Shown: positions 765 through 58,845 of the stretch, in pieces | Position numbering within the stretch: position 1 is the first letter of the stretch | How the letters are laid out: every line of letters begins with the position of its first letter | NCBI GenBank assembly: GCA_002163155.1 | Contig: MAAO01000006.1 | Span: 1,178,001 to 1,242,000 of the forward strand | DNA length: 64,000 bases | Direction: 5' to 3' | DNA from: Halobacteriovorax marinus | Lineage (GTDB): Bacteria > Bdellovibrionota > Bacteriovoracia > Bacteriovoracales > Bacteriovoracaceae | Notes under the pieces: model-generated | The model's input: only the letters and a program-made list of their open reading frames with translations | What the model was told of the DNA's origin: nothing | The model's database searches: none | Made by a program: the position numbers and the translations under genes

Positions 765-1751
765 ATGACAACTAAACGCGTTAGAGTCGCCGTTACTGGT
801 GCAGCAGGTCAAATTGGTTATGCAATCCTATTTAGAATTGCTTCTGGTCAAATGTTTGGAACAGATACTGAAGTAGAGCTAAGCTTACTTGAGCTTCCTC
901 ATGCATTAGGTGCCCTTGAAGGTGTAAAGATGGAGTTAGACGATTGTGCTTTTCCACTTTTGAAAAATATTGTTTGTACTGACAAAATGGAAGAGGCCTT
1001 TGCTGGAACTAACTGGATTTTAGCTATTGGAGCTGTTCCTAGAAAAGATGGAATGGAAAGAGCTGACCTTCTTAAAGTTAATGGTGGGATCTTTGGTCCA
1101 CTAGGTAAGGCCATGGCCGCTCACGGAGCAGATGATTGTAAATTATTTGTTGTTGGAAATCCTTGTAATACAAATTGTCTTATTGCCATGGAAAATTCTG
1201 GTCTACCAAAAGATCGTTTCTTTGCCATGACAACACTTGATGAGAATAGAGCAAAAACTCAACTTGCTACGAAAGCAGGGGTCGATGTTACAGAAGTGAC
1301 AAATATGACTATTTGGGGAAATCACTCAGCAACTCAATATCCAGATTTCTACAATGCTAAAATTGGTGGAAAGTCAGCAGCTGATGTAATCACTGATTCT
1401 GAATGGTTAAATGGAGAGTTTATCTCAACTGTTCAAAAGCGTGGAGCAGCCATTATTAAGGCCCGTGGAGCAAGTTCAGCAGCATCTGCTGCCAATGCTT
1501 GTGTAAGAGGTGTTCACGCCCTTACTCACGATACTCCTGCAGGAGAGACGTTCTCAATGTGTCTTTCTTCAAAAGGTGAGTACGGAGTAGACGAAGGTCT
1601 TATCTTCTCTTACCCATGTCGTGTTGATAATGGAACTCTTAAAGTTGTAGAGACTGTTGAGCATAACGATTTTGGTAAAGAAAAATTTCAAACAACTCTC
1701 GAAGAATTAAGAGCTGAAAAAGCTTCTGTTAAAGAGATGGGTTTAATTTAA
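765..1751 (+). CDS. mdh: Malate dehydrogenase
   Basis: NAD-dependent malate dehydrogenase of the citric acid cycle, interconverting malate and oxaloacetate in the cytoplasm. The protein is 328 residues, normal for the MDH group that resembles the animal cytosolic enzyme. The dinucleotide-binding loop GAAGQIG is at residues 12-18. The substrate-binding arginines are Arg93 and Arg99 (VPRKDGMER) and Arg162 (LDENR), and the catalytic pair is Asp159 and His187 (WGNHS). A strong ribosome binding site, AAGGAG, precedes the ATG. The gene stands alone and ends at a strong hairpin terminator shared with the small lipoprotein gene opposite. Nothing odd is seen. Confidence 0.97.
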
Positions 1752-1763
1752 TTTAATTCAAAA

Positions 1764-1791
1764 AAAAATGGGACCTTCTGGTCCCATTTTT
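1764..1791. terminator. Bidirectional intrinsic terminator between mdh and a lipoprotein gene
   Basis: A perfect 12-base-pair stem (AAAAATGGGACC with GGTCCCATTTTT) around a TTCT loop. Each strand reads a T-run after the stem, so it can end mdh transcription rightward and the small lipoprotein gene leftward. Confidence 0.9.
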
Positions 1792-1942
1792 AATAATCTC
1801 TTGTGAGATGTGATCTGTCTTCATCCTGTTCGTACACTGAATGAATAGGGTGTTCATTTACCGAACTAATTGTTCGTGAACCTGTCGTGCAAGACGATAT
1901 AAACAACGTTCCTAAGATAAGTAGAAAAATGGACTTCTTCAT
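1790..1942 (-). CDS. Small lipoprotein, 50 residues
   Basis: A short gene found by reading the reverse strand: ATG preceded by AAGGAG, 50 codons, and a TAA stop that touches the shared terminator. The product begins MKKSIFLLILGTLFISSC. This is a type II signal peptide with lipobox ISSC and Cys18 as the lipid-modified residue. The mature part is only about 33 residues and is polar (His, Asp, Glu and Ser rich) with no further cysteine. It should sit in the inner or outer membrane; the residue after Cys is Thr, which does not match the Asp retention signal known from enterics. No family is recognised. The start signal, lipobox and terminator together make this a real gene, though its function cannot be named. 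Confidence 0.8.
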   Translation of the reverse strand: MKKSIFLLILGTLFISSCTTGSRTISSVNEHPIHSVYEQDEDRSHLTRDY

Positions 1943-2023
1943 AGTTGAGCTCCTTACTCAATTATACGGCTTATTTTCTCTTTCTCTTAAATTTATTATC
2001 TAAAATGTACTGGAATCAGTAAC

Positions 2024-2494
2024 TTAGGCTTCTTCTGATAAGTTGTTGCTGGCCCTGAACTTCTCTAGCGCCTGGAAGAATTCGCGCTGGTCTTCAATCT
2101 CTAGTGAGCTCATAGTCTGGACATTCTTCTTGCGAATCCCTTTTTGCGCCAACAATTCATCGGCACTTCTAAGTCTGCTGGTAATACTTTGCGCAATGGT
2201 CACAAGCCATGCTGGGAATTGGTTATCAATCTCTTCAACAGGGATTTTAATAATGGTGGTGTCTTCTAAACAGACTGCACTGGCACTTCTCTTCTTCTTA
2301 TCAAAGAAGCTCAGCTCTCCTAGATATTCGCCGGCACCTAAGTGGGCGAGAGGAGTGACTTTAGTTCCTTTGGAGACAAAAATTAAAATCTTTCCTGAAT
2401 GAATAATGAAGAGGTCGCAATCATCTTGCCCTTCGGCACAAATAATGTCGCCCTTCTTCAAGTTCATTGTTAGAGGTCCAGAAATTTCTGTCAT
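2024..2494 (-). CDS. Cyclic-nucleotide-binding-domain protein
   Basis: A single CRP-like cNMP-binding domain of 156 residues without a DNA-binding helix-turn-helix. It may therefore act as a stand-alone sensor or partner rather than a transcription factor. The beta-roll covers residues 8-95. The phosphate-binding cassette is recognisable as GELSFF (59-64) followed by the conserved Arg69-Ser70 (RSASA). The remaining 60 residues form the dimer-type helix and a charged tail. The start has AAGGAA upstream. It lies 10 bases after the SGNH-like gene on the same strand, so the two are probably co-transcribed. Whether cAMP, cGMP or another ligand binds cannot be decided from sequence. Confidence 0.85.
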   Translation of the reverse strand: MTEISGPLTMNLKKGDIICAEGQDDCDLFIIHSGKILIFVSKGTKVTPLAHLGAGEYLGELSFFDKKKRSASAVCLEDTTIIKIPVEEIDNQFPAWLVTIAQSITSRLRSADELLAQKGIRKKNVQTMSSLEIEDQREFFQALEKFRASNNLSEEA

Positions 2495-2504
2495 AACTTT
2501 TTCC

Positions 2505-3632
2505 TTAGATTTTAAAAATTTGTTTAATCACTAAAATGAGTTCAGCTTTAAGTTTATCGTAGTAGATACTTTGCGGAAAAATATCATCAACAAAAGTAAT
2601 ATTTCTCGCTAGTCCACTTTCAACAATGATGGCAAAGTCCACAAGTGAAATATCATTCTTAGTAGCATGGTTCTTTAGAATTTTATTAAAGATGGGATTA
2701 CCTCTCCAGTTACCACAGTCAAAAGCACTGGCCAATAGAAGATTTTTCTTAGCTTCTTTAATATTACCTTGCAGTAAGTAGGCCCTACCTAATTGAAAGT
2801 ATGTGGTGGCATTTCCAAATGATTGTCCTGCTAGCATTTTTAATCTGGCTAGAGCCTCTTTTGATTGACCTTTTTTAAGAAGTTTATCAATATCATTTTG
2901 TTCGATCATAATGGTGTTGGTAATGGAATTATCACAGACAATTCTTGGAGCTACTTCTAGATTTATGGGAGCAGTAACGAAAACCAAAGTGGATCCTTTC
3001 TCGCGCATGAAAGAGCTCAATTCTTCTAGCTGCAATTGGTAGTACTTGTATATATACTCTGCCCTAAGTTGCGAAACTTTTGAACTGCTCGCCTTTTTAA
3101 AGGCCTTAATTTCTTTCTTCAAATAGAAGTACTTGCTTGGGGCCTTATAGAGAAATTTACTGGTCCAGGGAAAACTCATAAGAATTGAAGAGTACCTATC
3201 GTCCTTGAAAATTTTAAAATTAGCTTCAAAAATTTGTCGGTCTCGCGTAAGAAATCTCTCTTCTAGAAACTCTTCAGAGCCACCAAAATAGAGCACCATA
3301 GAGGGGATTTTCTTCAAAGACTTTAATTTCTTTAAAGTTCGGTGTAATCCTTCTCCCTCTGCTGACCAATTATATATCTTTAGCGGGTTTCGTAAATTCT
3401 TAGAGATACTTTCATTAATACCGGGTAGGTATTTATTGAGAGAAGATCCCAGACGATCTCCAATAATGAGGATGTCACTTTCTTGGATTTTTACTCTGTC
3501 TGCGACTTTACTAGCGGCCACAACGAAGGGATAGGGATAGATAGTGGTGGGCGTAGTTTTGAACTTCAGGTAAACAAATGTTCCTGTGCCCAGTAGTAAG
3601 AGAAGAAATAAAATGCTTATTTTCTTGATCAT
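2505..3632 (-). CDS. Membrane-anchored SGNH-hydrolase-like protein with a TPR-like segment
   Basis: A 375-residue protein with one N-terminal membrane segment (about residues 4-23), so the bulk should lie in the periplasm. The pattern LIIGDR (55-60) resembles block I of SGNH/GDSL hydrolases, but the usual Ser is replaced by Arg. A C-terminal FVDDIFPQ resembles the DxxH block but lacks the His. If the fold is right, classical catalysis is doubtful. Residues about 255-300 contain a tetratricopeptide-like helix pair (FQLGRAYLLQGNIKEAKKNL). It lies upstream of the cNMP-binding gene in one transcription unit. The SGNH call is tentative, since it rests on two weak motifs. Confidence 0.6.
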   Translation of the reverse strand: MIKKISILFLLLLLGTGTFVYLKFKTTPTTIYPYPFVVAASKVADRVKIQESDILIIGDRLGSSLNKYLPGINESISKNLRNPLKIYNWSAEGEGLHRTLKKLKSLKKIPSMVLYFGGSEEFLEERFLTRDRQIFEANFKIFKDDRYSSILMSFPWTSKFLYKAPSKYFYLKKEIKAFKKASSSKVSQLRAEYIYKYYQLQLEELSSFMREKGSTLVFVTAPINLEVAPRIVCDNSITNTIMIEQNDIDKLLKKGQSKEALARLKMLAGQSFGNATTYFQLGRAYLLQGNIKEAKKNLLLASAFDCGNWRGNPIFNKILKNHATKNDISLVDFAIIVESGLARNITFVDDIFPQSIYYDKLKAELILVIKQIFKI

Positions 3633-12145: not shown

Positions 12146-13144
12146 ATGGGAAATATATCTGATCGTAAATTTGAACATATTCAATTGGCCACCGCTGCGC
12201 AAACTGGCGTGGGTGAGCTGAATCAATTCTTTGATTATGAGCCACTCTTTAGTGCTCATCCAGACTCAGTTGATCTAAGTCTTACATTTCTCGGCAAGAA
12301 AATGCAGGCCCCTCTGTGGGTATCAAGCATGACTGGTGGTACGGGTCCTGCGAAAATTATTAATCAAAATTTGGCCCTTGTAACTAAAGAGTTTGGACTG
12401 GGCATGGCGCTTGGTTCTTGTAGACCTTTATTAGACGGTTCTAAGGACTTTTCTGACTTTGATCTACGTCCCATCATCGGAGATGATTTACCATTTTGGG
12501 CCAATTTAGGCATAGCTCAATTGGAAGAATTAATTGATGAAGGCAAGTTAGATAGTGTGAAAGAAATGCTTTCGAGACTCCAGGCCGATGGACTGATCAT
12601 CCATCTCAACCCGCTACAAGAATGGTATCAACCAGAAGGGGATCGCTACAAACGAAGTCCTCTGGAAACTATTGAAACTATCCTAGCTTCTGAGATTCCT
12701 GTGATTGTTAAAGAAGTGGGTCAGGGCATGGGTCCTAGGTCACTAAAAAAGCTTTTAGAGATGCCTTTAAAAGGGCTAGAATTAGCGAGTTTTGGGGGCA
12801 CAAACTTCTCTAAGTTAGAGAAATTACGTGAAAAAGAGCTAGATCTTTCTAAACCAATTGATTTGATGTTTGTTGGACATAGTGCGCTAGAGATGGTAAA
12901 TCAAATCAACCTTTTAAAGACTGAATTAGGCTCAAATATCCTATGTGAAAATATCATTATTTCTGGTGGTATCCAAGATTCGTTATATGGCCATTGGTTA
13001 AGCGAAAGGTGCCAGTTAACAAACGTTGTCGGCCGCGCTAAGGGCTACTTAGATCATGCAAGCTCAATTGATGATTTAAGGAAATTTGTAACCGGACAAA
13101 TTGAGACTTTAAAAATGGCAAAGAGCTTTTTAAAAGCTAAGTAA
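12146..13144 (+). CDS. fni: Isopentenyl-diphosphate isomerase, type 2 (FMN-dependent)
   Basis: Interconverts isopentenyl and dimethylallyl diphosphate using reduced FMN. The 332-residue length and the opening SDRKFEHIQLA (the R-K-x-x-H-I substrate-binding pattern) are typical. The flavin and phosphate loops WVSSMTGGTG (59-68) and ISGGIQD are present, along with GTNFSKLE. It is the first recognisable gene of the mevalonate block, 11 bases ahead of HMG-CoA reductase. Type 2 isomerase is the form usually found with mevalonate genes in bacteria, which supports the operon reading. Confidence 0.93.
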   Translation: MGNISDRKFEHIQLATAAQTGVGELNQFFDYEPLFSAHPDSVDLSLTFLGKKMQAPLWVSSMTGGTGPAKIINQNLALVTKEFGLGMALGSCRPLLDGSKDFSDFDLRPIIGDDLPFWANLGIAQLEELIDEGKLDSVKEMLSRLQADGLIIHLNPLQEWYQPEGDRYKRSPLETIETILASEIPVIVKEVGQGMGPRSLKKLLEMPLKGLELASFGGTNFSKLEKLREKELDLSKPIDLMFVGHSALEMVNQINLLKTELGSNILCENIIISGGIQDSLYGHWLSERCQLTNVVGRAKGYLDHASSIDDLRKFVTGQIETLKMAKSFLKAK

Positions 13145-13154
13145 GGGGCCACAA

Positions 13155-14477
13155 TTGAATATAATCAGCGGTTTTTCAAAGCTTACTAAATTAGAGAAAA
13201 TAAATTATCTCGTAGAGAACTATTTAAACGGTAGTTCTTTTTCAAAAGAGAAGATTCAAAGCTTTTGGCATGACAATCAGTCTGAACAAAAAGTCTTTGA
13301 TGATTTTTCAGAAAACACAGTCACAAATTACTTCTCACCTTACGGTGTTGTTCCTAATTTTCTTTTAAATGACAATCTTCTTTGCGTGCCAATGGTGATT
13401 GAAGAAAGTTCTGTCGTTGCTGCTAGTGCCAAGGCCGCAAAGTTTTGGTTAGAGCGCGGTGGATTTAAGGCAGAAGTTGTCTCCACAACTAAAGTCGGAC
13501 AAGTTCATTTTATTTGGAAGGGAAGTTCTGACAAAATAATAGAATTTTTTGAAGCGCAAAGAGAGAACTTATTAAGTGAAGTGACTCCTCTTGTGCAAAA
13601 TATGGAAAAAAGAGGTGGCGGTGTAAAGTCACTTTCAATTAAAGATTGTACGGATGTTGAAGAAGGTTATTACCAACTTCACGGTGAGTTTGAAACTTGT
13701 GATGCCATGGGTGCCAATTTCATCAATAGTGTTTTAGAAGCTTTTGGAAAGAAGTGGGAAGAGGTTGTTTCTTCCGAGCAAACTTTCTCAAAAGTTGAAA
13801 GAGAAATACAAATTGTTATGTGCATACTTTCTAACTACACACCTGACTGTTTGGTCAAGGCATGGGTAGAGTGTGATGTCGCTGATCTCGAAGAGAATGG
13901 TCTAGGAATGTCTGCAGAGGAATTTGCAGAGAAATTTTCTAGAGCAGTGAGAATTGCAAAAAATGATGTGAATAGAGCAGTGACTCACAACAAGGGCATT
14001 TTCAATGGTATCGACGCTGTCGTCTTGGCCACTGGAAATGACTTTAGAGCAATAGAGGCCTGCGGACATGCTTATGCTGCAAGATCAGGTCAGTATAGAA
14101 GTCTAAGTACTTGCCAAGTTGAAAATGGAAAATTTAAATTTGAATTAGAAATTCCCCTTGCTCTTGGAACTGTTGGAGGATTAACTTCTCTACACCCAAT
14201 GGCAAAAATTTCTCTAGATATGTTAGGTCATCCAAAAGCCAATGAGCTTATGATGATTACTGCCGCATTAGGTTTGGCCCAAAATTTTGGTGCCGTAAGA
14301 TCTCTTGTGACTACAGGAATTCAAAAAGGGCATATGAAAATGCACCTCATGAATATATTGAACCACCTTGAAGCTAATGACGAAGAGAGAGAGAAGACTA
14401 AAGTTCAGTTTACTGACCAAATTATCTCCTTCAATGCTGTTCGTGACTTTGTTTCAGGTCTAAGGAATTATCAGTGA
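13155..14477 (+). CDS. mvaA: Hydroxymethylglutaryl-CoA reductase, class II
   Basis: Reduces HMG-CoA to mevalonate, the committed step of the pathway. The soluble 440-residue form without membrane anchor is the bacterial class II type. Catalytic residues can be picked out: a Glu in VIEESSVVAA (81-90), Lys281 in THNKGIFNG, Asp297 in TGNDFRAIEA and His394 in QKGHMKMH. The DAMGANFIN motif is at 183-191 and the LGTVGG loop near 338-343. The start is TTG with AAGGGG upstream; no ATG lies near. The stop overlaps the GTG start of the next gene (GTGA). Confidence 0.95.
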   Translation: MNIISGFSKLTKLEKINYLVENYLNGSSFSKEKIQSFWHDNQSEQKVFDDFSENTVTNYFSPYGVVPNFLLNDNLLCVPMVIEESSVVAASAKAAKFWLERGGFKAEVVSTTKVGQVHFIWKGSSDKIIEFFEAQRENLLSEVTPLVQNMEKRGGGVKSLSIKDCTDVEEGYYQLHGEFETCDAMGANFINSVLEAFGKKWEEVVSSEQTFSKVEREIQIVMCILSNYTPDCLVKAWVECDVADLEENGLGMSAEEFAEKFSRAVRIAKNDVNRAVTHNKGIFNGIDAVVLATGNDFRAIEACGHAYAARSGQYRSLSTCQVENGKFKFELEIPLALGTVGGLTSLHPMAKISLDMLGHPKANELMMITAALGLAQNFGAVRSLVTTGIQKGHMKMHLMNILNHLEANDEEREKTKVQFTDQIISFNAVRDFVSGLRNYQ

Positions 14478-15508
14478 TCAACGAAAATATAGTCCCTACA
14501 TATATAAGTAACCTACAAGCTAATATAGAAGTGAAAGCTCAGAAGAATGATCATTTCTTCTATGGCCATGGAAAGTTACTACTTACAGGTGAATACTTTG
14601 TTTTAGACGGAGCCAAGTCTCTCGCGCTACCAACAACTGTTGGACAATCATTAAGTGTTAAGTACTCACCATCATTTTCCCCAAAACTTTATTGGAAGAG
14701 TTTTGATGTTCAAGGAAAACTTTGGTTTGAGACTACTTTTGAATTTTGGACTTTTGAAATCTTAAGTGAAGCACCGAGACCTGAAGAATTTGTACTGCAA
14801 AAAATTCTTAGACAAGCTAGAAAACAAAATCCTCATTTCTTAAGAGATGAGATGGATGTACACGTTGAGACAAACTTAGGTTTCCCTCTGGATTGGGGAC
14901 TAGGTTCAAGTTCTACTCTTGTACATAATATGGCACAATGGGCCTACGTAAGCCCATTTGAGCTCCAATTTGAGACCTATGGTGGTTCTGGTTATGACGT
15001 GGCCTGTGCACAGTCCGAAGGTCCAATTTTCTATTCAAGAAGAGCACAGGGACCGAATTGGTCACCAACAATATTTAATCCTAGTTACAAAGAAAACCTC
15101 TACTTCGTTTATAGAGGTAATAAACAAAACTCTAGAGCAGCGGTAGAATATTATAATTCACTTAGACCTGTTGATCCGGGGATAATTTTAAGTATCTCTG
15201 ATATTACACAAGATATATCTACTGCCACTACACTAAAAGAATTTGAATTTCTTATTGGAGCACACGAGAAAATAGTTTCGGGTGCACTAGATCTAAGAAG
15301 AGTAAAAGATGAAGCTTTCAGTGATTTCTGGGGAGAAGTTAAATCTCTTGGAGCCTGGGGCGGAGACTTTGTTCTCGTTTCTAGTTGTGAATCAGAAGAA
15401 GTCACTAGAAATTACTTTAAGAAGAAGGGATACGAGGTATTTATCCCTTATAATGAACTTATTTTAGGCGCAAAGGCACAAGATTTAAATAATGAACTCT
15501 TACATTAA
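14474..15508 (+). CDS. GYDIA-type GHMP kinase, probable mevalonate-pathway kinase
   Basis: A 344-residue small-molecule kinase of the GHMP fold. Motif 1 is GKLLLTGEYFVLDGA (33-47), the ATP loop is WGLGSSSTL (141-149) and the name-giving motif appears as SGYDVACA (172-179). This subfamily lies beside HMG-CoA reductase in Bacteroidota. Because mevalonate kinase and the decarboxylase are encoded next door, this is the natural candidate for the phosphomevalonate kinase step. That function is inferred from context and not shown by the sequence. Start is GTG, overlapping the mvaA stop, with AAGGAA seven bases upstream. It overlaps mvaD by 17 bases. Confidence 0.85.
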   Translation: MINENIVPTYISNLQANIEVKAQKNDHFFYGHGKLLLTGEYFVLDGAKSLALPTTVGQSLSVKYSPSFSPKLYWKSFDVQGKLWFETTFEFWTFEILSEAPRPEEFVLQKILRQARKQNPHFLRDEMDVHVETNLGFPLDWGLGSSSTLVHNMAQWAYVSPFELQFETYGGSGYDVACAQSEGPIFYSRRAQGPNWSPTIFNPSYKENLYFVYRGNKQNSRAAVEYYNSLRPVDPGIILSISDITQDISTATTLKEFEFLIGAHEKIVSGALDLRRVKDEAFSDFWGEVKSLGAWGGDFVLVSSCESEEVTRNYFKKKGYEVFIPYNELILGAKAQDLNNELLH

Positions 15509-16580
15509 GAAATATAAGTTAAAAGATATTGTTGAAGAATCGGGTCGTATTTCTTGGGTTTCTCCCTCAAATATCGCCTTAATCAAATATTGGGGTAAGC
15601 ATGGCAATCAACTGCCATCTAATCCTTCAATAAGTTTTACCCTTAATGATTCAAAAACGACCATGGATTTTTCATGGTCGAAGAAATCTACTGTAGACGA
15701 TTCTATCGTCTTAGATTTCTATTTTGAAAATAAGAAGAACGAGCCATTTGCACAAAAAATTCTCACATTTCTTGAAAGAAATATTGAACTCTTTCCTTTT
15801 TTTAAAACTCTAAGTTTAGAAATTGAATCTACTAACTCTTTTCCTCATTCAGCAGGAATTGCTTCAAGTGCATCAAGCATGAGTGCTCTAGCTCTGGGCC
15901 TTTGTACAGTTGAAAATGAAGCTTACGACTTAGGTATGAGTGAAAGTGAAATAAACGATAAAGCTTCATTTGTTGCCAGACTTGCTTCAGGAAGCGCTTG
16001 TCGTTCAGTATATGGAAAAGTTGTAAGTTGGGGACACTCTGAACACGAGCTCATCAATTCAACAAATGAGACTTCAAGTATAGTCCTTGAACTTGATGAA
16101 ATCTTTTCTACTTATAGAGACTCTATTCTCATTGTGGATTCTGCTGTAAAGCCTGTGAGCTCAAGAGCGGGACATGCACTTATGAATAACCATCCTTTTA
16201 AGGATGTTCGTTTTAAAAATGCTAAAGAGCAAATGATGAAACTTGTGGACTCTATGATTAAGGGAGACTTAGAAAGTTTCTGTAAAATTGTAGAGACTGA
16301 GGCCCTTGAATTACATGGCCTGATGATGAATTCAGATCCTAGTTTTATTCTTATGAAACCTGCGACACTTTCTATCATCGAGAGAATAAGATCCTTTAGA
16401 GATAGTTCTAAACTCCCCATTTGTTTTACTTTAGACGCTGGGCCTAATGTCCATCTACTTTATCCTGACAATATTAAAGAAGAAGTGATGTCTTTTATTA
16501 AGAGCGATCTTCTACCTTTCACTCAAAATGATCTCGTCATTCATGACTTTGTTGGATCTGGGCCAGAAAGGTATTTATAA
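15492..16580 (+). CDS. mvaD: Diphosphomevalonate decarboxylase
   Basis: ATP-dependent decarboxylation of mevalonate diphosphate to isopentenyl diphosphate. The signature NIALIKYWGK lies at residues 27-36, followed by NPSISFTLNDSKTT. The Ser-rich phosphate loop SAGIASSASSMSAL and the RLASGSACRS motif are clear. At 362 residues it is a little longer than the usual 320-340, mainly at the N-terminus. The start lies inside the end of the GHMP kinase gene. The stop is one base before the ATG of mevalonate kinase. Confidence 0.93.
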   Translation: MNSYIKKYKLKDIVEESGRISWVSPSNIALIKYWGKHGNQLPSNPSISFTLNDSKTTMDFSWSKKSTVDDSIVLDFYFENKKNEPFAQKILTFLERNIELFPFFKTLSLEIESTNSFPHSAGIASSASSMSALALGLCTVENEAYDLGMSESEINDKASFVARLASGSACRSVYGKVVSWGHSEHELINSTNETSSIVLELDEIFSTYRDSILIVDSAVKPVSSRAGHALMNNHPFKDVRFKNAKEQMMKLVDSMIKGDLESFCKIVETEALELHGLMMNSDPSFILMKPATLSIIERIRSFRDSSKLPICFTLDAGPNVHLLYPDNIKEEVMSFIKSDLLPFTQNDLVIHDFVGSGPERYL

Positions 16581-16581
16581 A

Positions 16582-17484
16582 ATGGATTCTTTTTACTCTA
16601 AGGTTCTCCTATTTGGAGAATATTCTATTATTAGAAATTCAATGGCGCTTGCGGTTCCTTATTCTTTATTTGAAGGGAAATTAACATTTCCTAGAGATAA
16701 GAACTTTAGAATTGATAGTGAACTTAAAGCTTTCGCGCAATATTTAAAAAATCTTGATGCTAAAGAAGAGCTTCTTTGTGAAATGGACTTATCGAGTTTT
16801 GAATTTGATATAGGGCAAGGAATCTTCTTTGATTCCTCTATTCCTCAAGGTTATGGAGTAGGGAGTTCTGGAGCAGTTGTTGCTGCAGTTTTTAAGAATT
16901 ATCAAACAAAAGAATTTGATATAGAAAAATCTCTTCCATTTTTAAAGAATACTTTCGCACAACTTGAATCACACTTTCACGGTTCAAGTAGTGGAATGGA
17001 TCCGCTTATAAGCTATTTAAATAGTCCGCTGCTTATCAACGGCAGTAATGACTACCGGCAAGTAGAGATTCCGAAGAGTGAAGGTGAGGGCGCAATATTT
17101 TTGTTAAATACAGGAAGGTCTAGAAGAACTGAACCTTTGGTTAATCTATTCTTAGAAAAATGTAAGACAGAACATTTCTCCAACCTATGTGACAATGTCT
17201 TAGCTCCTATCACTGATAATTGTATCAACGCTTTCTTATCAGGTGATAAGGATAGTTTATTTGAATTCTTTAGAGAACTTTCTGACTTTCAATTCAGACA
17301 TTTCGGTCCAATGATACCAAAACTCTACAACGAACTTTGGGAAAATGGACTTAAGTATGAGAATTTCTATCTGAAGTTATGTGGCGCTGGTGGTGGTGGT
17401 TTTCTGCTTGGAATGACTAAGAACTTAAAAGAGGCCATGGTAGATTTAAGTCCCTACGAGATTAGACCTCTTTTTAAATTTTAA
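16582..17484 (+). CDS. mvaK1: Mevalonate kinase
   Basis: GHMP kinase of 300 residues that should phosphorylate mevalonate. Motif 1 is KVLLFGEYSI (7-16), the ATP loop is PQGYGVGSSGAVVAA, and the mevalonate-kinase pattern HFHGSSSGMDP carries the conserved Asp. Motif 3 is LCGAGGGGFLLG near the end. I chose the ATG at 16582, directly after the mvaD stop; an upstream in-frame GTG/ATG at 16528 would lie inside mvaD. AGAAAGG upstream may serve as the ribosome binding site. It is the last gene of the run and ends 4 bases into the convergent crotonase-fold gene. Confidence 0.88.
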   Translation: MDSFYSKVLLFGEYSIIRNSMALAVPYSLFEGKLTFPRDKNFRIDSELKAFAQYLKNLDAKEELLCEMDLSSFEFDIGQGIFFDSSIPQGYGVGSSGAVVAAVFKNYQTKEFDIEKSLPFLKNTFAQLESHFHGSSSGMDPLISYLNSPLLINGSNDYRQVEIPKSEGEGAIFLLNTGRSRRTEPLVNLFLEKCKTEHFSNLCDNVLAPITDNCINAFLSGDKDSLFEFFRELSDFQFRHFGPMIPKLYNELWENGLKYENFYLKLCGAGGGGFLLGMTKNLKEAMVDLSPYEIRPLFKF

Positions 17485-18308
17485 TTACTCAACTGTTGTT
17501 CTCTTTCTACTTTTAGTTTTGAGGAGAGTTCTTTGGCTGTAGTACACTGAGCTTCACTTCCAAACTTTGCAATTTCTCTCCAATCATTAGTACACATTCC
17601 GGCAAGGCTAAATGTCTTCTCCCACTCTAGTGTTTTATCTAGCTTTTCCATAATAGGCTCAAGTAAACTTCTCTTGGCCTGAATTCTAGGAATATCTGGT
17701 TGGTTGGAAATAGTTTGCAGGTAAGAGCTTGCAGTGGATTCTTCTTTGTAGCTCTCAAGGATAATATTGTTATTTAAAAGCTCAGTCGCATTAAGTTTCT
17801 TTGAAGCAAGTAGCCATTGTCTAACGGCTCCATTGCTAAATAAAGCACTTGTAAATCCAATTCCACCACAGCTTGGGACAATACCTTTTTGCAAGTGATT
17901 GAAGTGCATTTCAGCTTCATGGTTGGCTATTCTAATATCTGCACCCATAGCAAGTTCAAGTCCAAGTCCTTTAGCGCCATTTTTTAAATCTACAATAATG
18001 GTTTGAGGAAGATAGAACATGCTATAAACAAGTTTTTGAAGTTTTTCGAAATTCTTTTGTTTCTTCTCGTCACTCCAGGTTGAAAATTCTTCGTCATCAA
18101 GACCTTTACAAAAGTAATCACCACGACCTGTAAAGAGAATGGTTTTTATTTCTATATGGGTAGAAACCCAAGTAAAAAGAGTCTCTAACTCAAAGATCAT
18201 CTCTGTATTAATTGCATTTTGAATCTCGGGACGATTTAACTCGACGACAATGGAGCGGGTTTCTTTGCTTAAACTGACACTAAGTGTGTTGTAGTTGAAG
18301 AGTGACAT
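17481..18308 (-). CDS. Enoyl-CoA hydratase/isomerase family protein
   Basis: A 275-residue crotonase-fold protein. The oxyanion-hole segments are recognisable as FTGRGDYFCKGLD (first loop) and NGAKGLGLELAMGADIRIA (second loop). The expected catalytic Glu region is divergent (LQKGIVPSCGG), so hydratase activity cannot be assumed; isomerase, hydrolase or lyase activity is possible. It is transcribed toward the mevalonate block and overlaps its end by 4 bases. It follows the FecR-like gene on the same strand after a gap of about 150 bases. A role in fatty acid or branched-chain acyl-CoA metabolism is likely but unproven. Confidence 0.85.
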   Translation of the reverse strand: MSLFNYNTLSVSLSKETRSIVVELNRPEIQNAINTEMIFELETLFTWVSTHIEIKTILFTGRGDYFCKGLDDEEFSTWSDEKKQKNFEKLQKLVYSMFYLPQTIIVDLKNGAKGLGLELAMGADIRIANHEAEMHFNHLQKGIVPSCGGIGFTSALFSNGAVRQWLLASKKLNATELLNNNIILESYKEESTASSYLQTISNQPDIPRIQAKRSLLEPIMEKLDKTLEWEKTFSLAGMCTNDWREIAKFGSEAQCTTAKELSSKLKVEREQQLSN

Positions 18309-18454
18309 TTTACCTTCCTTGGTACTTTAAAGAATCGATCCTTGATTCCACTTCTAAATTTTTTCAATTTCTCGAAACTCTGTCAAAAAAAAAGTGGCAA
18401 TAGGACCAAGTAAATAAATATATTTTGTAATTTCAGTTGCTTGGAAGTCTTAAT

Positions 18455-19030
18455 TTAATTGGAATCTAAGAGAAATTTTAGATCTTCTTGTAATTCTTGA
18501 TCAGTTAGCTCGGAATTGAGTGTGGCCTTCTTGATTCTTATCCGTTTTTTCGCCCTAGACTTTGCTAGCGAAAACGTTCTAAAACCTTGCTTAAAACTTG
18601 TGAGAACTTTTCTATTTTCTGTGTAATGAATTTCAAAGTGATCGCCATAGTAGGCCTTATCGTTATCTCTGATATTTATTAGAAGTCCGGGTTTCTTACC
18701 CTTATAGATGATATCTTTTTTAAATTGTATATTTCCCTTGATAAGACTTAAGAGTCTTATGCCATCTGTCTTTGTGACTCTAAGAACGACTTGCGTATTT
18801 GGTGCAAGATAAACAGTTCCTATGACCTCATCGTTAAAGTCAATTATTGCAATGCCTTTAGAGTCTGTTGTAATGATGGAGTTAGTGAAAACTCTAGTCT
18901 GTGTTTGAATTTTTATAGGTTTCTGACTCCCATGAAATCTAAAAACATTTCCACTGATCCTCGTCGCTGTGATTTTTGCTTGTGTCGTAAGAACTAGTAA
19001 GAATAGAAAAATTGAGAGTAATTTTTTCAG
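18455..19030 (-). CDS. FecR-like exported protein with a CTG start
   Basis: A 191-residue protein missed by standard start rules. The frame is open from 18455 back to a TAG only five codons before position 19030. It contains no ATG, GTG or TTG before or within the signal peptide, so CTG is the only reasonable start. That CTG overlaps the stop of the upstream gene (CTGA), suggesting coupled re-initiation. The product starts KKLLSIFLFLLVLTTQA, a clean signal peptide. A FecR-like beta segment follows (residues about 25-115: RISGNVFRF, IAIIDFNDE, VYLAPNTQVVLRV, SLIKGNIQF), then a basic region and an acidic end. No FecI-type sigma factor is adjacent. Lies in the same transcription direction as the PilZ-GAF-AAA gene. 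Confidence 0.78.
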   Translation of the reverse strand: MKKLLSIFLFLLVLTTQAKITATRISGNVFRFHGSQKPIKIQTQTRVFTNSIITTDSKGIAIIDFNDEVIGTVYLAPNTQVVLRVTKTDGIRLLSLIKGNIQFKKDIIYKGKKPGLLINIRDNDKAYYGDHFEIHYTENRKVLTSFKQGFRTFSLAKSRAKKRIRIKKATLNSELTDQELQEDLKFLLDSN

Positions 19031-20733
19031 GACGCTTTCTCTCTATCTAGAGCATTATTTATAAGGTTCATAATTTTAAATGGATGAATGCTCTTATCTG
19101 TGGCGCGAATTATCTTTTCAGAGATGGTTTTCGCTTTTTCTTCTTGCGTAATCTCTAGTTCGATTATAAGTGAATCTGGAGAATTGATCATAAAAGATTT
19201 TTTAATAAGTTTTTCTAATTGAGTAATATTCTCTGGCCAAGAATAGGCTTTTATAAACTCTATACTTTCATCAGAGAAAGATTTAAGAGCGAGGTTTCTT
19301 TTTTGACATTCAATTTTTACAAAATACCTAGCAATTGTGAGAATGTCTTCCTTTCTATTTCTTAGGGGTGTTAAGTGAAAAATTGATTTGGTAAACTTCC
19401 TAAAAAGTTCTTTATGAAATTTTCCACTATCGATTTGTAGTTTTAAATCTTCGTGTGAAGTTGTAATAAATTGGCAATGGTGAAATTGAGACCAATTGTA
19501 TATTTTTATTTGTTGGTCAGAGTTTAAATGATTTATATTTTTTAAAATAATTGAATAGTCTCTTGATAGAGGAGTAGAGATATCTAATAACTCTTCTATT
19601 TTTGTTTCATCTTTGCAGTCGAATACTTCGAAATCTGTATAGTTTGCAAGACTTTTTGCAAAGAAGGCCTTACCTAGACCATATTCACCAATAATATGAA
19701 TATTTGTTCTCCCATACTTCAACTTCTTCAATGTTGATCTAATGGCAGATGATTTTTGGTTACATCCAAAATAGATAAAACTATCTTCTAGCTCAGGATT
19801 AAGGTGAGCAATAGCTGTCGCTTTTGATTTAGGAACAAAGTGTATGAAGTTTTTCGAGATAACCATTGCGAGAAAATGTGCCATGGACTCTTCTGTTACA
19901 CTAAAGCCAGAGCCTTTTTTATTGTTAAATTGTAAAACACCAATTGATTTCTTTTCTTTATTAAAGAGGGGGAGACAGAGAGTATTGTATGTTTCAAATT
20001 CGTCTTCTGCTCTTTTCTTACCATCTTTAAAAAAAGTATTAATACTCTGTGAGGTTGTAAAGCACTTACCAATATCATTTTTAGAAAAACTACTTTCTTT
20101 TAAAAGTGAGTTTCCTGAATTTGTATAAATATTTTCAAGCCTATCGCTATCAATATTTATTTTCCACATTCTAACTTCTTCACATTGGAGAAGGTGCACA
20201 CACTCATTTATGAGGTCTTGAATTTCATTCTCTTCAAATTCTTTATATAAGACATTTAGTAAACTAAAGAGTTCAATTCCATCTCTAACGTTAATTTTTC
20301 TCGCTGAGAGGGCAGACTTAATAAGAAAATCTTTTAAGGACTTCCCTGAAAAACCTGAAATATAATCTGTAATAAAGTACTTTAATTCTGAATCTTCACT
20401 CTGGTCTATGAGTTCCACACCGTAGTTAAACTGTAGAGATTCTGCTTTCTCCGAGAAGGATCTTATGACAACACCTTCTACTTCAAGATCCCACCTGTTG
20501 AATATTTTCTTTGTATAGAGTTCTATTCTTACTTTTGAATTTACCGGGATTTGAAATTCGGATTTAAATGAAAGACTAAAAAGGTTGAAGTCAATAAGTT
20601 GAAGTTCCTTATTTACTATGACTCCTTTCTTTTTTCCATCGAGTATTTTTAGTTTTAGAAAGATTTTATCATCCGTTGCAACTTTTACTCTGAACGATCT
20701 ATAAAATTTAAAATTGGTGAGTCCTTTTTTCAT
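19027..20733 (-). CDS. PilZ-GAF-AAA protein with degraded sigma-54-activator ATPase
   Basis: 568 residues. Residues 1-130 resemble a PilZ domain (opening FYRSFRVKVATDD, with YGVELI later), the usual cyclic-di-GMP receptor. Residues 155-300 are GAF-like (GVLQFNNKKGSGFS). Residues 320-540 follow the AAA fold of bacterial enhancer-binding proteins (RNRKEDILTIARYF and YSWPENITQLEKLI). The Walker A loop is altered to GEYGLGKAFF, the Walker B region reads YSIILKNIN without the acidic pair, and the GAFTGA loop that contacts sigma-54 is absent. No helix-turn-helix follows. It is therefore unlikely to activate sigma-54 promoters. Divergent from its paralogue at 20822. Confidence 0.8.
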   Translation of the reverse strand: MKKGLTNFKFYRSFRVKVATDDKIFLKLKILDGKKKGVIVNKELQLIDFNLFSLSFKSEFQIPVNSKVRIELYTKKIFNRWDLEVEGVVIRSFSEKAESLQFNYGVELIDQSEDSELKYFITDYISGFSGKSLKDFLIKSALSARKINVRDGIELFSLLNVLYKEFEENEIQDLINECVHLLQCEEVRMWKINIDSDRLENIYTNSGNSLLKESSFSKNDIGKCFTTSQSINTFFKDGKKRAEDEFETYNTLCLPLFNKEKKSIGVLQFNNKKGSGFSVTEESMAHFLAMVISKNFIHFVPKSKATAIAHLNPELEDSFIYFGCNQKSSAIRSTLKKLKYGRTNIHIIGEYGLGKAFFAKSLANYTDFEVFDCKDETKIEELLDISTPLSRDYSIILKNINHLNSDQQIKIYNWSQFHHCQFITTSHEDLKLQIDSGKFHKELFRKFTKSIFHLTPLRNRKEDILTIARYFVKIECQKRNLALKSFSDESIEFIKAYSWPENITQLEKLIKKSFMINSPDSLIIELEITQEEKAKTISEKIIRATDKSIHPFKIMNLINNALDREKAS

Positions 20734-20821
20734 ATATTCCTATCGGTTAAATTGGAGATGAGTTTAAGGAAAATCTTTAAAGCTCCGACAAGTAGAGAGA
20801 GAACCTTTGGACTTATAAGTT

Positions 20822-22687
20822 ATGGATAATATTGTAAAATTAAAATCATACCGATCATTTAGAATCCCTGTGGAGCCTACTGATAAGATTTCTATGGTTA
20901 TTCTTAAGTCTGATGGTCAAGCATTAGATGATAAAGAAATAAAATGGGATATAACTAATGTTAGTTTGTCAGGTATTGCTTTTGAAAGTGGTATTGAAAT
21001 TACCTATGGAAGTATCTTAGAGTTAGAGCTTAGTTATAAGAGTTTTGTTTTTCAAGCTTCATCTAAGGTGACTAGGGCCCATCCCATTTTTAATGTTTTC
21101 GGTGAAGTTGAAAGTTATCAATATGGGATTGAATTTTTCACTGGAGACCAAGAGAGTGGGAGAGATTTTATTTCTCATTTTATTTCTAGCTTTAGTACTA
21201 AGAGATTAAAAAAACACTTAATAAATCTTCTGATTAATGAAAGTCGAATAAATACATTTACTGATGGGCAGAAATTATCTCTAAGCTTATCTCTTTTTAC
21301 TGACATGAAACAATTTAAAGGAATGGAAAGTTTTTTAAAAACGATCTTTCTGGAATGTTGTAGGTCTTGTAAATCAGATGTTGCTAATGTTTTTATTCTA
21401 AATGATAGTAGAGACTCTCTCTATAAACTTAACCTTGATGATCTTTCCAAAGAAAAAATATGTACCTTAAATGATCAAGCTATGATCAATGAACTTCTTA
21501 CCACTAAGAGATTTAAAACTGTTAAATCCATTGGGCATTTGAGCCTAGAAACATTTCCTACTGTTTCAGTAAATGAAAAAGGTGAAGAGTTTAGACATGC
21601 TTTGTTCTTTCCTCTAGAAGACTCTCAGGGAAAGACCTTTGGTTTCTTTGAATTTATTAACTTCGATGCGGATAAGAGTTATACAGAAGCAGATCTTTCT
21701 ACCATAGAGCTTTTTAGTAATATTTTTACTATGTGCTATGGCAATCTTGATAAAAGTGAATTCGTAAATTACTTAGATGATGGTATCAAATATAGGAATA
21801 GCTCTGAACTTATTGGTAAAAGTAAAAGCATTGATGTGGTACAAGAGTTCATCCAAGATCAAGGTGATCACGGAGAAAATGTTCTAATTGAAGGACGCCA
21901 TGGTGTTGGTAAAATTCATATTGCTAAAAATATTCACGATAATAGCGCCACTAATAAAATGGCGATTGGAACTATTCACTGCAATGAAATAGAGTCGAGT
22001 AGTGAGTTTACTTTATCTATATATGGAGACAGTGACCATGTAGGAAAACTAGAGCTGTATTCGGGGGGAACACTCATTTTACATGAGCCGTCTCTTCTGA
22101 AAAAAGAAGATCAAGAAACGCTTCTTAAAGCGTTAAAAGATAGAACAGATATTCGTGTCATAACGACTTCAACTTTTTCATTAGAAGAGATCTGTCAGGA
22201 AGGTTCATTTAATAGTGAACTCTACGAGGTTCTATCTAAGAATTATTTCTTTGTTCCTAATTTAATAGATAGAAAAGAAGATATTCCTTATTTGGTGAAT
22301 CACTTTTTAGATTTACTGTGTTTAAGTTATGGATTGCCTTCTAAGCGTATCTCATCCCATGTGATGGATATATTTACCAATTACAATTGGCCTGGAAATA
22401 TACAAGAATTAAGAACAACGATTGAGAGGTTAGTGAATTACTATCCCTATGTTCGTTTCTTGGATGAGTTGCCGCAAAAAGAATTTCCGATTATTGGAGA
22501 GTATCCAAGGCAAGCGGGAATCTATGATGATATCTTTAGTGATAATGAAGAAGTGATCAATCAGACCACTTTACTTGAAGAGCTCATAGTGAACTTCTGT
22601 AGTGCTAATAAGCTCACTAGGGAAGAATTTGATAGATTGTACCCATCAAATGAGAAAGAGTACTCAGAGGTAAAGAAAGCGTCCTAG
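20822..22687 (+). CDS. PilZ-GAF-AAA protein, divergent paralogue
   Basis: 621 residues with the same three-part design as the gene at 19027. A PilZ-like domain opens it (YRSFRIPVEPTDK, then NVSLSGIAFESG and YGIEFF). A GAF-like domain follows (about 170-305, FGFFEFINFD), then an enhancer-binding AAA core (about 330-560: GRHGVGKIHIAKNIH as Walker A, GGTLILHEPSLL in place of GGTLFLDE, RKEDIPYLVNHFL, YNWPGNIQELR). The acidic Walker B residue is His-Glu rather than Asp-Glu, and no GAFTGA loop is seen. The C-terminus lacks an obvious helix-turn-helix. The pair may bind each other, or act as cyclic-di-GMP-dependent adaptors. Its start shares an 88-base divergent promoter region with the paralogue. 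Confidence 0.82.
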   Translation: MDNIVKLKSYRSFRIPVEPTDKISMVILKSDGQALDDKEIKWDITNVSLSGIAFESGIEITYGSILELELSYKSFVFQASSKVTRAHPIFNVFGEVESYQYGIEFFTGDQESGRDFISHFISSFSTKRLKKHLINLLINESRINTFTDGQKLSLSLSLFTDMKQFKGMESFLKTIFLECCRSCKSDVANVFILNDSRDSLYKLNLDDLSKEKICTLNDQAMINELLTTKRFKTVKSIGHLSLETFPTVSVNEKGEEFRHALFFPLEDSQGKTFGFFEFINFDADKSYTEADLSTIELFSNIFTMCYGNLDKSEFVNYLDDGIKYRNSSELIGKSKSIDVVQEFIQDQGDHGENVLIEGRHGVGKIHIAKNIHDNSATNKMAIGTIHCNEIESSSEFTLSIYGDSDHVGKLELYSGGTLILHEPSLLKKEDQETLLKALKDRTDIRVITTSTFSLEEICQEGSFNSELYEVLSKNYFFVPNLIDRKEDIPYLVNHFLDLLCLSYGLPSKRISSHVMDIFTNYNWPGNIQELRTTIERLVNYYPYVRFLDELPQKEFPIIGEYPRQAGIYDDIFSDNEEVINQTTLLEELIVNFCSANKLTREEFDRLYPSNEKEYSEVKKAS

Positions 22688-22711
22688 TGCCTCAACAAGT
22701 GGACGCTCAAT
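22678..22711 (+). terminator. Possible terminator after the PilZ-GAF-AAA gene
   Basis: A 7-base-pair stem (AGCGTCC with GGACGCT) around a 16-base loop, overlapping the last codons of the gene and followed by CAATTTT. The loop is long and the T-run short, so it may be weak. Confidence 0.4.
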
Positions 22712-22848
22712 TTTAAAGATTTTCCTAAACATTTATCGCTAACTATCCGTTAATACATTAAATAACTATTTATATGCCAATAGTTTTAATTTTATTTCCA
22801 TCGTTTGAGACAATGGTCTGTAATGGAAACACAAGATTCGGATGAATT

Positions 22849-24693
22849 ATGAATATTAAAAAGTTTGTGACATTCCTAGTAAGTTACTGCCTGATCATGG
22901 TGCAAATGCCTGTTCTAGCAGAGGACAATACTGAACCTGTCGAGCCAGCTGCACATAGTTGTCCCGAAGGAAGAACATGGAATAAAAGTGCCGAGGCCTG
23001 TTTAAATCCAAGTGATCATTCCCGAGTTAATGAAAAACAAAAAATGTGTGACTCTAAGGCCGATGGTCCTGAGAAAGACGAATGTACTTCTATGGTTAAG
23101 TCTTTTGCTGCTGATCAAGTAGGAGAAGCAGGAGAGGGAATTACAGGTTCTGAAACAGGTATAAAAGCTGCAAGTGCTGTCTCATCTGTTGTGATTGCCT
23201 ATGCATCAGGCGGTATCAAAGCTGGTATAGGCCTTGTGCAAGCGGGTTGGAACTGGATGATTGGTGCTGAAGCTGCAGCAACAACAGAGAGTGTTTTTTG
23301 TTACTCTGCTATGTTGTCACTCGCAATATTTGTTATGAGTTTATTAAATTCTAGTAATTTAAAAAAACAAGTTAAGGAAACACTAAAAGTTGCCAACGCT
23401 GACCTTAAGAGATTAGTGGCCGAGAGTAAAAAAGGTGATGGCGTAAAATATGAAATGCAAATTAAGCTCATGCAGGCCTATAAGAAGTCTTTAGAGGGTG
23501 CTGAAGAAGCGGCGAAAATGAGAAAAGATGGTTATAAGCAAGAAATGACGATGCTTTCAATTGTCTTAGCTGCTGCCCTTATTGAAATGATGATTACACA
23601 AGCTGCAATCACTGCTGCTTTAGCAACAACTCCTGTAGGTACAGCTGCTTTAGTAATATTAGAACCAAGACTTGTATGTACCTATTGGACAGCTGGTGCT
23701 GCAGCTGTTTCTCTTGGTTTTACTACTGTTTTAGTGAAGCATGCTGCAAAAGCTGAAAGTAAATATGGAGATAATGCAGAAAAGATTGGTAAGGTTTTAA
23801 ATAAATATATGGCATTTTTCCAGAAAAGACATACCGATAGAACTTCTTTTCTTACTTCCATGGCGACAAGTAATCGTGGAGCAGGAGCTGTAACAAGTAT
23901 AAGTCCTAATGATGGAGATGCACAATCTTTTAAAAATACCAGCTTAACTGAAGGTGAGAAGAAGATGTGTAATAATTCTCCTAATGTTGGCTGTTGTAAT
24001 GACTCAGGAAAAACTTGTCCTAGTTTTAGTATTTCTATGGCACCTCCTGCAATTTCATCTGCTATTAATAAGGCCGATTTAAATGGTGCCTTTGAACGAG
24101 CAGATTCAAGACTACAAGGTAGTTTAAATGTTTCTGATCCTAATGTAAGTCTTGCCATTGATAAGGATTTAAGACGTGCTAGAGCATTTAAAAAACGTGT
24201 ACTTGATCAACTTATAGGAAAGCTTCCTGCTGGCAAAGCAGAGCTCTTTGATGAGAATAAACAATTTAAAGCATACTTAAAGAAAAATTTCGGTAATGAG
24301 AATTATCAATTTACTTCTGACTTTGGTGCGAATATGGCGCTAGGTGGAGATAAAGATAGGTTTAGAAAATTAATGAATGAAGGAGATACCCCAAAAGAGT
24401 TACAAGCAGATAAGAATAAACTTACAAATAGTTTAGCCAGTCTTTCAACAGTTGCAGTACCAAAATTTAAAATGCCAAAGGGAATGGACCTAGATCTTGA
24501 TGATGAAGATCTAGAAAGTGATAGCTCTCTTACTGGTGGCGATATGAATGGTGGTCTTGCTGCTGACGAAGAGTATGTGATTAATAAACCTGAAATCGTT
24601 AATAAGCCTGAAGTATCAATTTTTCAGGTGATTAGTAATCGATATAATGTTCTAAGAATTTCCAAGAGATTTGGAAAGAGAGTTAGGAAATAA
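22849..24693 (+). CDS. Exported or membrane protein, function unknown
   Basis: 614 residues beginning with a signal peptide that ends near MPVLA-EDN. A short cysteine-rich mature start (CPEGRTW, ACLNPS, CDSKADG, ECTSM) suggests periplasmic disulfides. Hydrophobic segments at about residues 105-130, 150-165, 230-265 and 278-297 indicate membrane insertion; a charged helical stretch lies between them (165-225). A second cysteine group (CNNSPNVGCCNDSGKTC) follows near residue 375. The end is acidic and then basic. No family is recognised. It stands alone between the PilZ-GAF-AAA gene and a strong bidirectional terminator. Confidence 0.8.
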   Translation: MNIKKFVTFLVSYCLIMVQMPVLAEDNTEPVEPAAHSCPEGRTWNKSAEACLNPSDHSRVNEKQKMCDSKADGPEKDECTSMVKSFAADQVGEAGEGITGSETGIKAASAVSSVVIAYASGGIKAGIGLVQAGWNWMIGAEAAATTESVFCYSAMLSLAIFVMSLLNSSNLKKQVKETLKVANADLKRLVAESKKGDGVKYEMQIKLMQAYKKSLEGAEEAAKMRKDGYKQEMTMLSIVLAAALIEMMITQAAITAALATTPVGTAALVILEPRLVCTYWTAGAAAVSLGFTTVLVKHAAKAESKYGDNAEKIGKVLNKYMAFFQKRHTDRTSFLTSMATSNRGAGAVTSISPNDGDAQSFKNTSLTEGEKKMCNNSPNVGCCNDSGKTCPSFSISMAPPAISSAINKADLNGAFERADSRLQGSLNVSDPNVSLAIDKDLRRARAFKKRVLDQLIGKLPAGKAELFDENKQFKAYLKKNFGNENYQFTSDFGANMALGGDKDRFRKLMNEGDTPKELQADKNKLTNSLASLSTVAVPKFKMPKGMDLDLDDEDLESDSSLTGGDMNGGLAADEEYVINKPEIVNKPEVSIFQVISNRYNVLRISKRFGKRVRK

Positions 24694-48701: not shown

Positions 48702-48762
48702 ATACTTAAATTTTCGGGTTAAACGACCGATATCTTAAGTAGAAATCTTAAATGGATGTATT

Positions 48763-58113: not shown

Positions 58114-58845
58114 TTGAAATTATTTAGAAAAATTCTGTTTGGAATATTATTTATTGTAGAGATTTCTGTAAGCGCTGAAGTTGTCACTATAGCTGCGGAG
58201 GATGATTGGATTCCCTATGCTAGAGAAGATGGTACAGGCTTAAGTAATGACATCGTGAAGGCCGCTTTTAAAAGTGTTGGTGTAGAAGCTAAATATAAAA
58301 TTTTTCCCTACTCGAGAGTACTTCACTATTTAGAGTCAGGTGAGTATGTCGCAGGTTTTAATGTTCCAGCAGATGCGAGTAGTCGCAAGAAATTTATTCT
58401 TGGCAAGGAGAAATTGTTTGATGCAGTCTCGGCCTATTATGAAAATATCACTAGTCCTATGAAAGCTAAGAACAGAGATGAACTTAGAAATGCAAAGAGA
58501 ATAGGGGTTGTTCGAGGTTATGGTTATGGAGATCACTTTTCGAACTTAGTAAAATTAGGTCGAATATCTAAGGAAGTGACAAGTTCAGAAATCTCAAACT
58601 TAAAGAAGTTGGCCCTAGGTAGAATTGATAGCACAATTCTCTATAGGAAAACTTCTGAAATACTCATTAGTAAATTAAAGTTGGTGCAGAAGATTAAGTA
58701 TGCTTTTGACAATGAAGTGACGCCTGTCTACTTAGCTTTTTCAAGGCTACATAAAAAGGGTCGCTACTACGCCAAGAAATTTGATGAGGGCATGAGGAAT
58801 ATTCGTGCAAATGGAGTCTATCAAAAAATTGTAGCTTCTTACTAA
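58114..58845 (+). CDS. Orphan periplasmic amino-acid-binding-like protein (SBP family 3), second copy
   Basis: 243 residues from a TTG with AAGG upstream; signal peptide KILFGILFIVEISVSA-EVV. Family 3 solute-binding pattern: ITIAAEDDWIPYARED-like opening (VTIAAEDDWIPYA), GLSNDIVKAAFKSVGV, YSRVLHYLESGEYVAGFNV and RNAKRIGVVRGYGYG. It ends in GMRNIRANGVYQKIVASY, the usual C-terminal segment. A 13-codon leader frame (58076-58117) overlaps its start by TTGA. The stop overlaps the convergent kinase gene. No transporter lies near; a sensory partner of the kinase is possible but unproven. Confidence 0.8.
   Translation: MKLFRKILFGILFIVEISVSAEVVTIAAEDDWIPYAREDGTGLSNDIVKAAFKSVGVEAKYKIFPYSRVLHYLESGEYVAGFNVPADASSRKKFILGKEKLFDAVSAYYENITSPMKAKNRDELRNAKRIGVVRGYGYGDHFSNLVKLGRISKEVTSSEISNLKKLALGRIDSTILYRKTSEILISKLKLVQKIKYAFDNEVTPVYLAFSRLHKKGRYYAKKFDEGMRNIRANGVYQKIVASY

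Follow-up and report, generated by a model that had tools for sequence, protein, structure and literature searches.

A divergent pair of PilZ-GAF-AAA proteins in Halobacteriovorax marinus related to a family-wide HTH regulator and devoid of sigma-54 contact elements

Introduction

The AAA fold of the NtrC class occurs without normal sigma-54 contact in Brucella NtrX, the NtrC proteins of Caulobacter and Rhodobacter, VspR, VpsR and FleQ, which generally have both a receiver-type domain and an HTH. HrpR and HrpS form a hetero-oligomeric activator pair and the FlgR-type activators work without a DNA-binding domain; these proteins keep GAFTGA and the ATPase motifs and activate sigma-54 promoters. 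Among the relatives devoid of GAFTGA, the NtrC proteins of Caulobacter and Rhodobacter and VspR act on sigma70 promoters (PMC10274813).

Here we describe two divergently encoded proteins, A and B, from a 64-kb stretch of the Halobacteriovorax marinus genome (contig MAAO01000006.1; the window), together with a third protein, C, encoded elsewhere in the same genome. As in NtrX, NtrC, VspR, VpsR and FleQ, the NtrC-class AAA fold of A and B comes without normal sigma-54 contact, but the two proteins differ from that group in having PilZ and GAF parts in front, in lacking an HTH and in having lost the Walker B DE pair and both arginine fingers. They resemble HrpR/HrpS in their pairing and the FlgR-type activators in their missing HTH, and are unlike both in the loss of GAFTGA, the Walker B DE pair and the arginine fingers.

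Results

Domain organisation of A and B

Protein A (positions 19027..20733, minus strand; 568 aa) consists of a degenerate PilZ part, a GAF domain, an AAA domain and its lid, without an HTH, and ends in DREKAS. Protein B (20822..22687, plus strand; 621 aa) has PilZ, GAF-like, AAA and lid parts followed by an eroded HTH, and ends in EVKKAS. A first-pass annotation of the window had described a divergent pair with an enhancer-binding AAA core, and this was confirmed: the two full-length ORFs diverge from a gap of 88 bp, and Pfam found the sigma-54 AAA domain and the lid in both (Sigma54_activ_2, 1e-22, and lid, 1e-11, in A; Sigma54_activat, 1e-13, and lid, 4e-17, in B). The PilZ and GAF-like parts named in the same annotation were weaker in this search, the matches for PilZ in B and GAF in A both lying under the curated cut-off. 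Their assignment is nevertheless secure, because the full-length homologue C, to which A and B align from end to end at 27-28% identity, carries both domains above cut-off.

The solved structures nearest to B by sequence were NtrX, VpsR and FleQ. Structure prediction, which had been proposed for both proteins, was good for B only over about residues 331-540, the AAA core, where pLDDT was about 90 and above; the PilZ, GAF and C-terminal parts were poor because the alignment behind the model held mainly generic activators. When the modelled core was used as a Foldseek query, the best matches were Brucella NtrX, FlrC and PspF, followed closely by VpsR and FleQ. A and B share the AAA domain and lid of NtrC-class sigma-54 activators according to Pfam and to sequence comparison with the PDB, and for the core of B Foldseek agrees. 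A search for relatives of B among named genomes returned only generic sigma-54 activators and no close relative, and an Rfam search of positions 18300-23000 gave no match.

Protein C is found throughout the family

Protein C (L002, positions 1483-3435; 650 aa) has the order PilZ, GAF, AAA and Fis-type HTH, and Pfam recognised PilZ (1e-8), GAF (2e-12) and HTH_8 (7e-10) above cut-offs, along with the sigma-54 AAA domain. At E 1e-50 it was detected in 91 of the 97 genomes searched from the window's family, as a single copy per genome apart from weaker matches to A and B, and 194 genomes from elsewhere in the phylum gave no match. Neither a Bacteriovoracaceae MAG nor a Pseudobdellovibrionaceae MAG yielded a full-length relative of C, and both of these MAGs carry the mevalonate gene. 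No description of C was found among the publications retrieved. A, B and C each formed a monophyletic clade (SH-aLRT 96, 99 and 99, respectively) apart from canonical activators, with the branching order among the three blurred by long branches. C shares with A and B its domain order, promoter class and tail, and like them has neither the L1 loop nor the arginine fingers, but it differs from them in its highly conserved, nearly invariant HTH, in Walker A and DxSxxG motifs that are kept throughout (Walker A in 51/51) and in its slow evolution. Sequence comparison thus identifies A and B as fast-evolving paralogues of C that share its ancestry.

Motor and sigma-54 contact elements

Motif states were read from a joint alignment of 14 A, 14 B and 51 C proteins (79 in all) with five canonical activators of the same genome, which possessed GAFTGA, Walker A, the Walker B DE pair and the arginine fingers throughout. 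GAFTGA, present in 5/5 of these activators, was found in 0/14 A, 0/14 B and 0/51 C proteins, so that its loss, already read from the window, was borne out across all 79 with no hidden loop. Both arginine fingers were likewise missing in 79/79, a point absent from the first-pass annotation. The Walker B DE pair occurred in 0/14 A, 0/14 B and 5/51 C proteins, the altered motif reading IILKN in A and LILHE in B of the window. The claim that both proteins had lost their Walker motifs therefore stood for Walker B but not for Walker A, which is intact in the two window proteins (GEYGLGKA in A, GRHGVGKI in B) and, as GxxGxGK, in 9/14 A, 12/14 B and 51/51 C proteins; in the A proteins of genus g33 the whole P-loop has gone. 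As the motor is degenerate even in the HTH-bearing C, this degeneration is already family-wide. By sequence, A and B have lost everything required for driving sigma-54 RNA polymerase (GAFTGA, the Walker B DE pair and the arginine fingers), which supports the earlier view that they are unable to act as sigma-54 activators, and both are probably non-hydrolysing.

The region following the AAA domain

No HTH was detected in A or B by Pfam, and A ends some 40-50 residues past the lid with nothing HTH-like. The HTH profile of C, however, matched the B orthologues of g33 (E 6e-6, hhalign probability 69%) and all B proteins taken together (7e-7, 85%), while in the window's genus the HTH region of B is shortened and gave no match to the HTH of C on its own. 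The remnant in g33 suggests that B probably descends from an HTH-bearing form. The statement that no DNA-binding domain follows the AAA core thus applies to A and to B of the window, but not to B of g33, where an eroded HTH persists.

PilZ motifs

In known PilZ receptors the motifs RxxxR and DxSxxG contact cyclic di-GMP (PMC7288161). The first arginine of RxxxR is missing in A, in B and in nearly all C proteins. DxSxxG is kept in C, takes the form NxSxxG in most B proteins and is lost in A of the window, the position reading DFNLFS in window A and NVSLSG in window B. The change in RxxxR argues against binding of cyclic di-GMP by the PilZ parts of A and B.

Promoters of the pair and of C

The gap between A and B contains two putative sigma28-type promoters, that of A at 20741..20767 on the minus strand (TTAAA-N16-CCGATA; TTAAACTCATCTCCAATTTAACCGATA) and that of B at 20764..20790 on the plus strand (TTAAG-N16-CCGACA; TTAAGGAAAATCTTTAAAGCTCCGACA), with overlapping -35 boxes. 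Both match the pattern TTAAR-N16-CCGAYA exactly, and they account for two of the three exact sites in the window. The pattern was framed after the gap had been read, yet it coincides with an independently published consensus, TTAAG-N16-CCGATA, of the attack-phase promoters of Bdellovibrio, attributed to FliA (PMC3627812). Across the 14 orthologous gaps a looser pattern faced B in 10 and A in 7, against a background of 32 sites in 400 kb, and a similar sigma28 pattern lay upstream of C in 29 of 51 genomes. From these sites we infer attack-phase expression of A and B, and with it the existence of an attack phase in this organism.

No shared operator was seen in the A-B gap besides the sigma28 boxes. 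In genus g1 an inverted repeat, TGCC-N10-GGCA, lies about 24 bases upstream of the -35 box of C (L002, about 1392-1440), its exact pattern recurring in about 12 of 51 genomes. The repeat combined with the sigma28 pattern occurred once per genome in 4/5 genomes of the genus, always at the promoter of C, and never in a reversed control, and it is a reasonable guess that it represents a candidate autoregulatory operator of C. As an operator of A and B the repeat was rejected, being absent from their gap.

Separately, divergent sigma28-like sites, one exact and one with a mismatch, were noted at 48706-48738 between the genes at 47283-48701 (minus strand) and 48763-50460 (plus strand), the products of which both have signal-peptide-like N-termini.

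A conserved C-terminal tail

All C (51/51) and B (14/14) proteins and 10/14 A proteins end in [AVTS][AS], mostly after lysines, the typical tail being KKAA or KKAS after a variable linker. In the window this degron-like tail is KAS in A (19030..19038, minus strand) and KKAS in B (22673..22684, plus strand), each within the coding region. Entropy over the final four residues of C is 0.24, 0.85, 1.8 and 1.1 bits, against about 3.5 bits in the linker, which extends over 19-70 residues after the HTH. Such tails were found on 27 of 407 background ORFs (about 6%). A terminal AA or KKAI is a ClpX recognition signal in E. coli and Caulobacter (PMC8138137, PMC11034885), and the tmRNA tag of the present genome, AKSNDFAMPMAA, also ends in AA. 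The tail of A, B and C thus resembles the ClpX C-degrons of MuA (RRKKAI), ssrA (LAA) and Caulobacter CdnL (AA), being a short K-K-A-A/S-type ending conserved apart from its linker. ClpX and ClpP are listed among the putative attack-phase core genes of Bdellovibrio (PMC5430801).

The same tail was also found on other signalling-type proteins. Among response regulators sampled from genome G000 (L130-L149, L230-L259, L282-L301), 13 of 49 carried a K/R-[AVTS][AS] ending versus 23 of 407 in the background (5.6%; Fisher p 2e-5), in a test that was defined after the background list had been seen and with slightly overlapping samples, and this over-representation is best regarded as a lead. In a genome sample of PilZ proteins 2/12 carried the tail, and genes with FliA promoters showed no general enrichment once A and B were left out (p 0.035 only with them counted). 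Within the window, a HisKA-domain protein at 58842-60230 ends in EHQKKAA, a tail as in A, B and C.

Distribution, locus and selection

The distribution of the pair across relatives, which the first-pass annotation had proposed to survey, was examined with a B profile over 129 genomes of the family. The pair was confined to five of 48 genera (g1, g10, g12, g27 and g33), with A and B together. In the genomes examined the two genes are divergent and occupy a single chromosomal site, adjoining an enoyl-CoA-hydratase-like gene that ends a mevalonate cluster, and in g1, g10 and g12 trxB lies on the far side; the contigs of g27 and g33 cover the hydratase side. In relatives without the pair (G044, G045, G016, G034, G007, G040, G023, G021 and G014) the hydratase gene and trxB are adjacent or nearly so and the site is empty. 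The mevalonate-pathway cluster itself, at 12146-17484 of the window, is syntenic across the family. This operon and the FliA type of promoter would suit a relative of Bdellovibrio and Bacteriovorax.

Next to A lies a gene for a FecR-like secreted protein (18455..19030, minus strand; 191 aa) with a probable CTG start overlapping the stop of A. The overlap is CTGA in three genomes of the genus and ATGA in a fourth, G128, and may represent a conserved non-ATG coupled start. Its identity as FecR-like found support solely through the orthologue from L318, the only one with a Pfam match (PF04773, 2e-5). Downstream of B is the gene for a secreted protein, cl10 (22849..24693, plus strand), with homologues beside B in g1, g27 and g33, and in the same three genera a FecR-like gene lies beside the pair. 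The proposed coupling with the FecR-like gene was seen in g1, and in g27 and g33 there were other envelope genes; g10 and g12 showed no such coupling, the FecR-like, LolA-like and cl10 neighbours all being absent beside the pair.

The reading frames were open in 14/14 pairs. Between G049 and G002, pN and pS were 0.105 and 0.783 for A and 0.156 and 0.788 for B, indicating purifying selection, and within genera pN was 0.11-0.31 against a saturated pS. Non-synonymous change in A and B was 2-3 times that in C. A pseudogene reading of A and B was rejected on these codon statistics.

Discussion

The explanation that we favour, tentatively and as one that is possible rather than probable, is that A and B act in the attack phase as partners or antagonists of C that neither hydrolyse ATP nor bind DNA and that are cleared by ClpXP-type proteolysis. 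FliA would drive the synthesis of A and B in the motile attack phase, and their AAA/GAF/PilZ part would let the two proteins associate with one another as well as with C. Mixed oligomers of A, B and C would grip DNA incompletely and so dampen or retune C, and on leaving the attack phase A and B would be removed through their tail by ClpXP-type proteolysis. The relationship to C, the lost motor, sigma-54 and DNA-binding elements, the sigma28-like promoters, the conserved tail and the purifying selection are established from the sequences; the association with C and the proteolytic removal are steps that we infer. The partner or antagonist model would explain why the HTH has gone from both proteins although the part that forms oligomers, the promoter class and the tail have all been retained. 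Against it, many genomes have C without the pair, so C needs no pair, and the faster evolution of A and B also fits a looser or different role. Furthermore, as the arginine fingers are lost in C too, hexamer assembly may not happen at all. Against the degron step, 4/14 A proteins have no strict tail, and the tail might serve localisation or binding rather than degradation.

This last alternative, in which KKAA/KKAS is a binding or polar-localisation motif of signalling proteins and A and B are stable signalling subunits, is rather unlikely; it rivals only the proteolysis step and shares ground with the other models. The enrichment among response regulators and the presence of the tail on a protein with a histidine-kinase domain and on further proteins of signalling type would suit it, but a terminal AA or AS after two lysines fits the known ClpX C-signals and the tmRNA tag of the genome.

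The first-pass annotation had suggested recruitment to a non-transcriptional, cyclic-di-GMP-dependent scaffold, perhaps with the FecR-like protein, and nothing found supports such recruitment. In its broader form, a cyclic-di-GMP or nucleotide scaffold at the envelope acting with the FecR-like, LolA-like and secreted neighbours, we judge it improbable. It draws on the lack of an HTH in A and in B of g1, and on the Walker A kept in both window proteins. It accounts for the envelope genes that adjoin the pair in g1, g27 and g33 but leaves unexplained why g10 and g12 keep the pair without them, and it meets PilZ parts that have lost the first arginine of RxxxR throughout, with DxSxxG lost in window A and changed in most B. 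The closest full-length relative, C, is an HTH regulator, g33 B retains an HTH remnant, and promoter class and tail are shared with C; together these features favour a role in modulating a transcription factor over scaffolding.

It is just as doubtful that A and B form a hetero-oligomer regulating their own locus or the adjacent envelope genes, either while in solution or by way of a DNA-binding surface that has escaped recognition. The fixed divergent layout with its overlapping -35 boxes and the probable origin of B from an HTH-bearing form are in keeping with this idea, but the gap offers no shared operator beyond the sigma28 boxes. Such regulation also has precedent in GAFTGA-less regulators of sigma70 promoters, the Caulobacter and Rhodobacter NtrC proteins and VspR (PMC10274813). 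On the other side stand two further points, the absence of any DNA-binding domain from A and the overall architecture of the precedents themselves. These, as a rule, keep a DNA-binding domain. Finally, that A and B are decaying gene copies without function, as their fast divergence and the whole P-loop lost in g33 A might suggest, is very improbable indeed, given 14/14 open pairs, pN far below pS and conserved promoters and tails.

Returning to A and B as partners or antagonists of C, a more far-reaching version, which we consider unlikely as a whole, would be a phase-specific 'dominant-negative' module: in a lineage of predator-like bacteria an ATPase-dead regulator is duplicated and stripped of its HTH, the resulting FliA-driven divergent pair titrates its parent in the attack phase, and it is then destroyed via a degron class spread over many signalling proteins.

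C, A and B together define a regulator family that seems to be confined to a single family of bacteria. Its members retain the AAA fold of the NtrC class but have given up the motor and the contact with sigma-54; A and B have given up DNA binding too. Bdellovibrio-like life cycles raise the question of how swimming-phase signalling proteins could be cleared at the phase switch, and the tail, should it be a degron, would provide a sequence handle on it.
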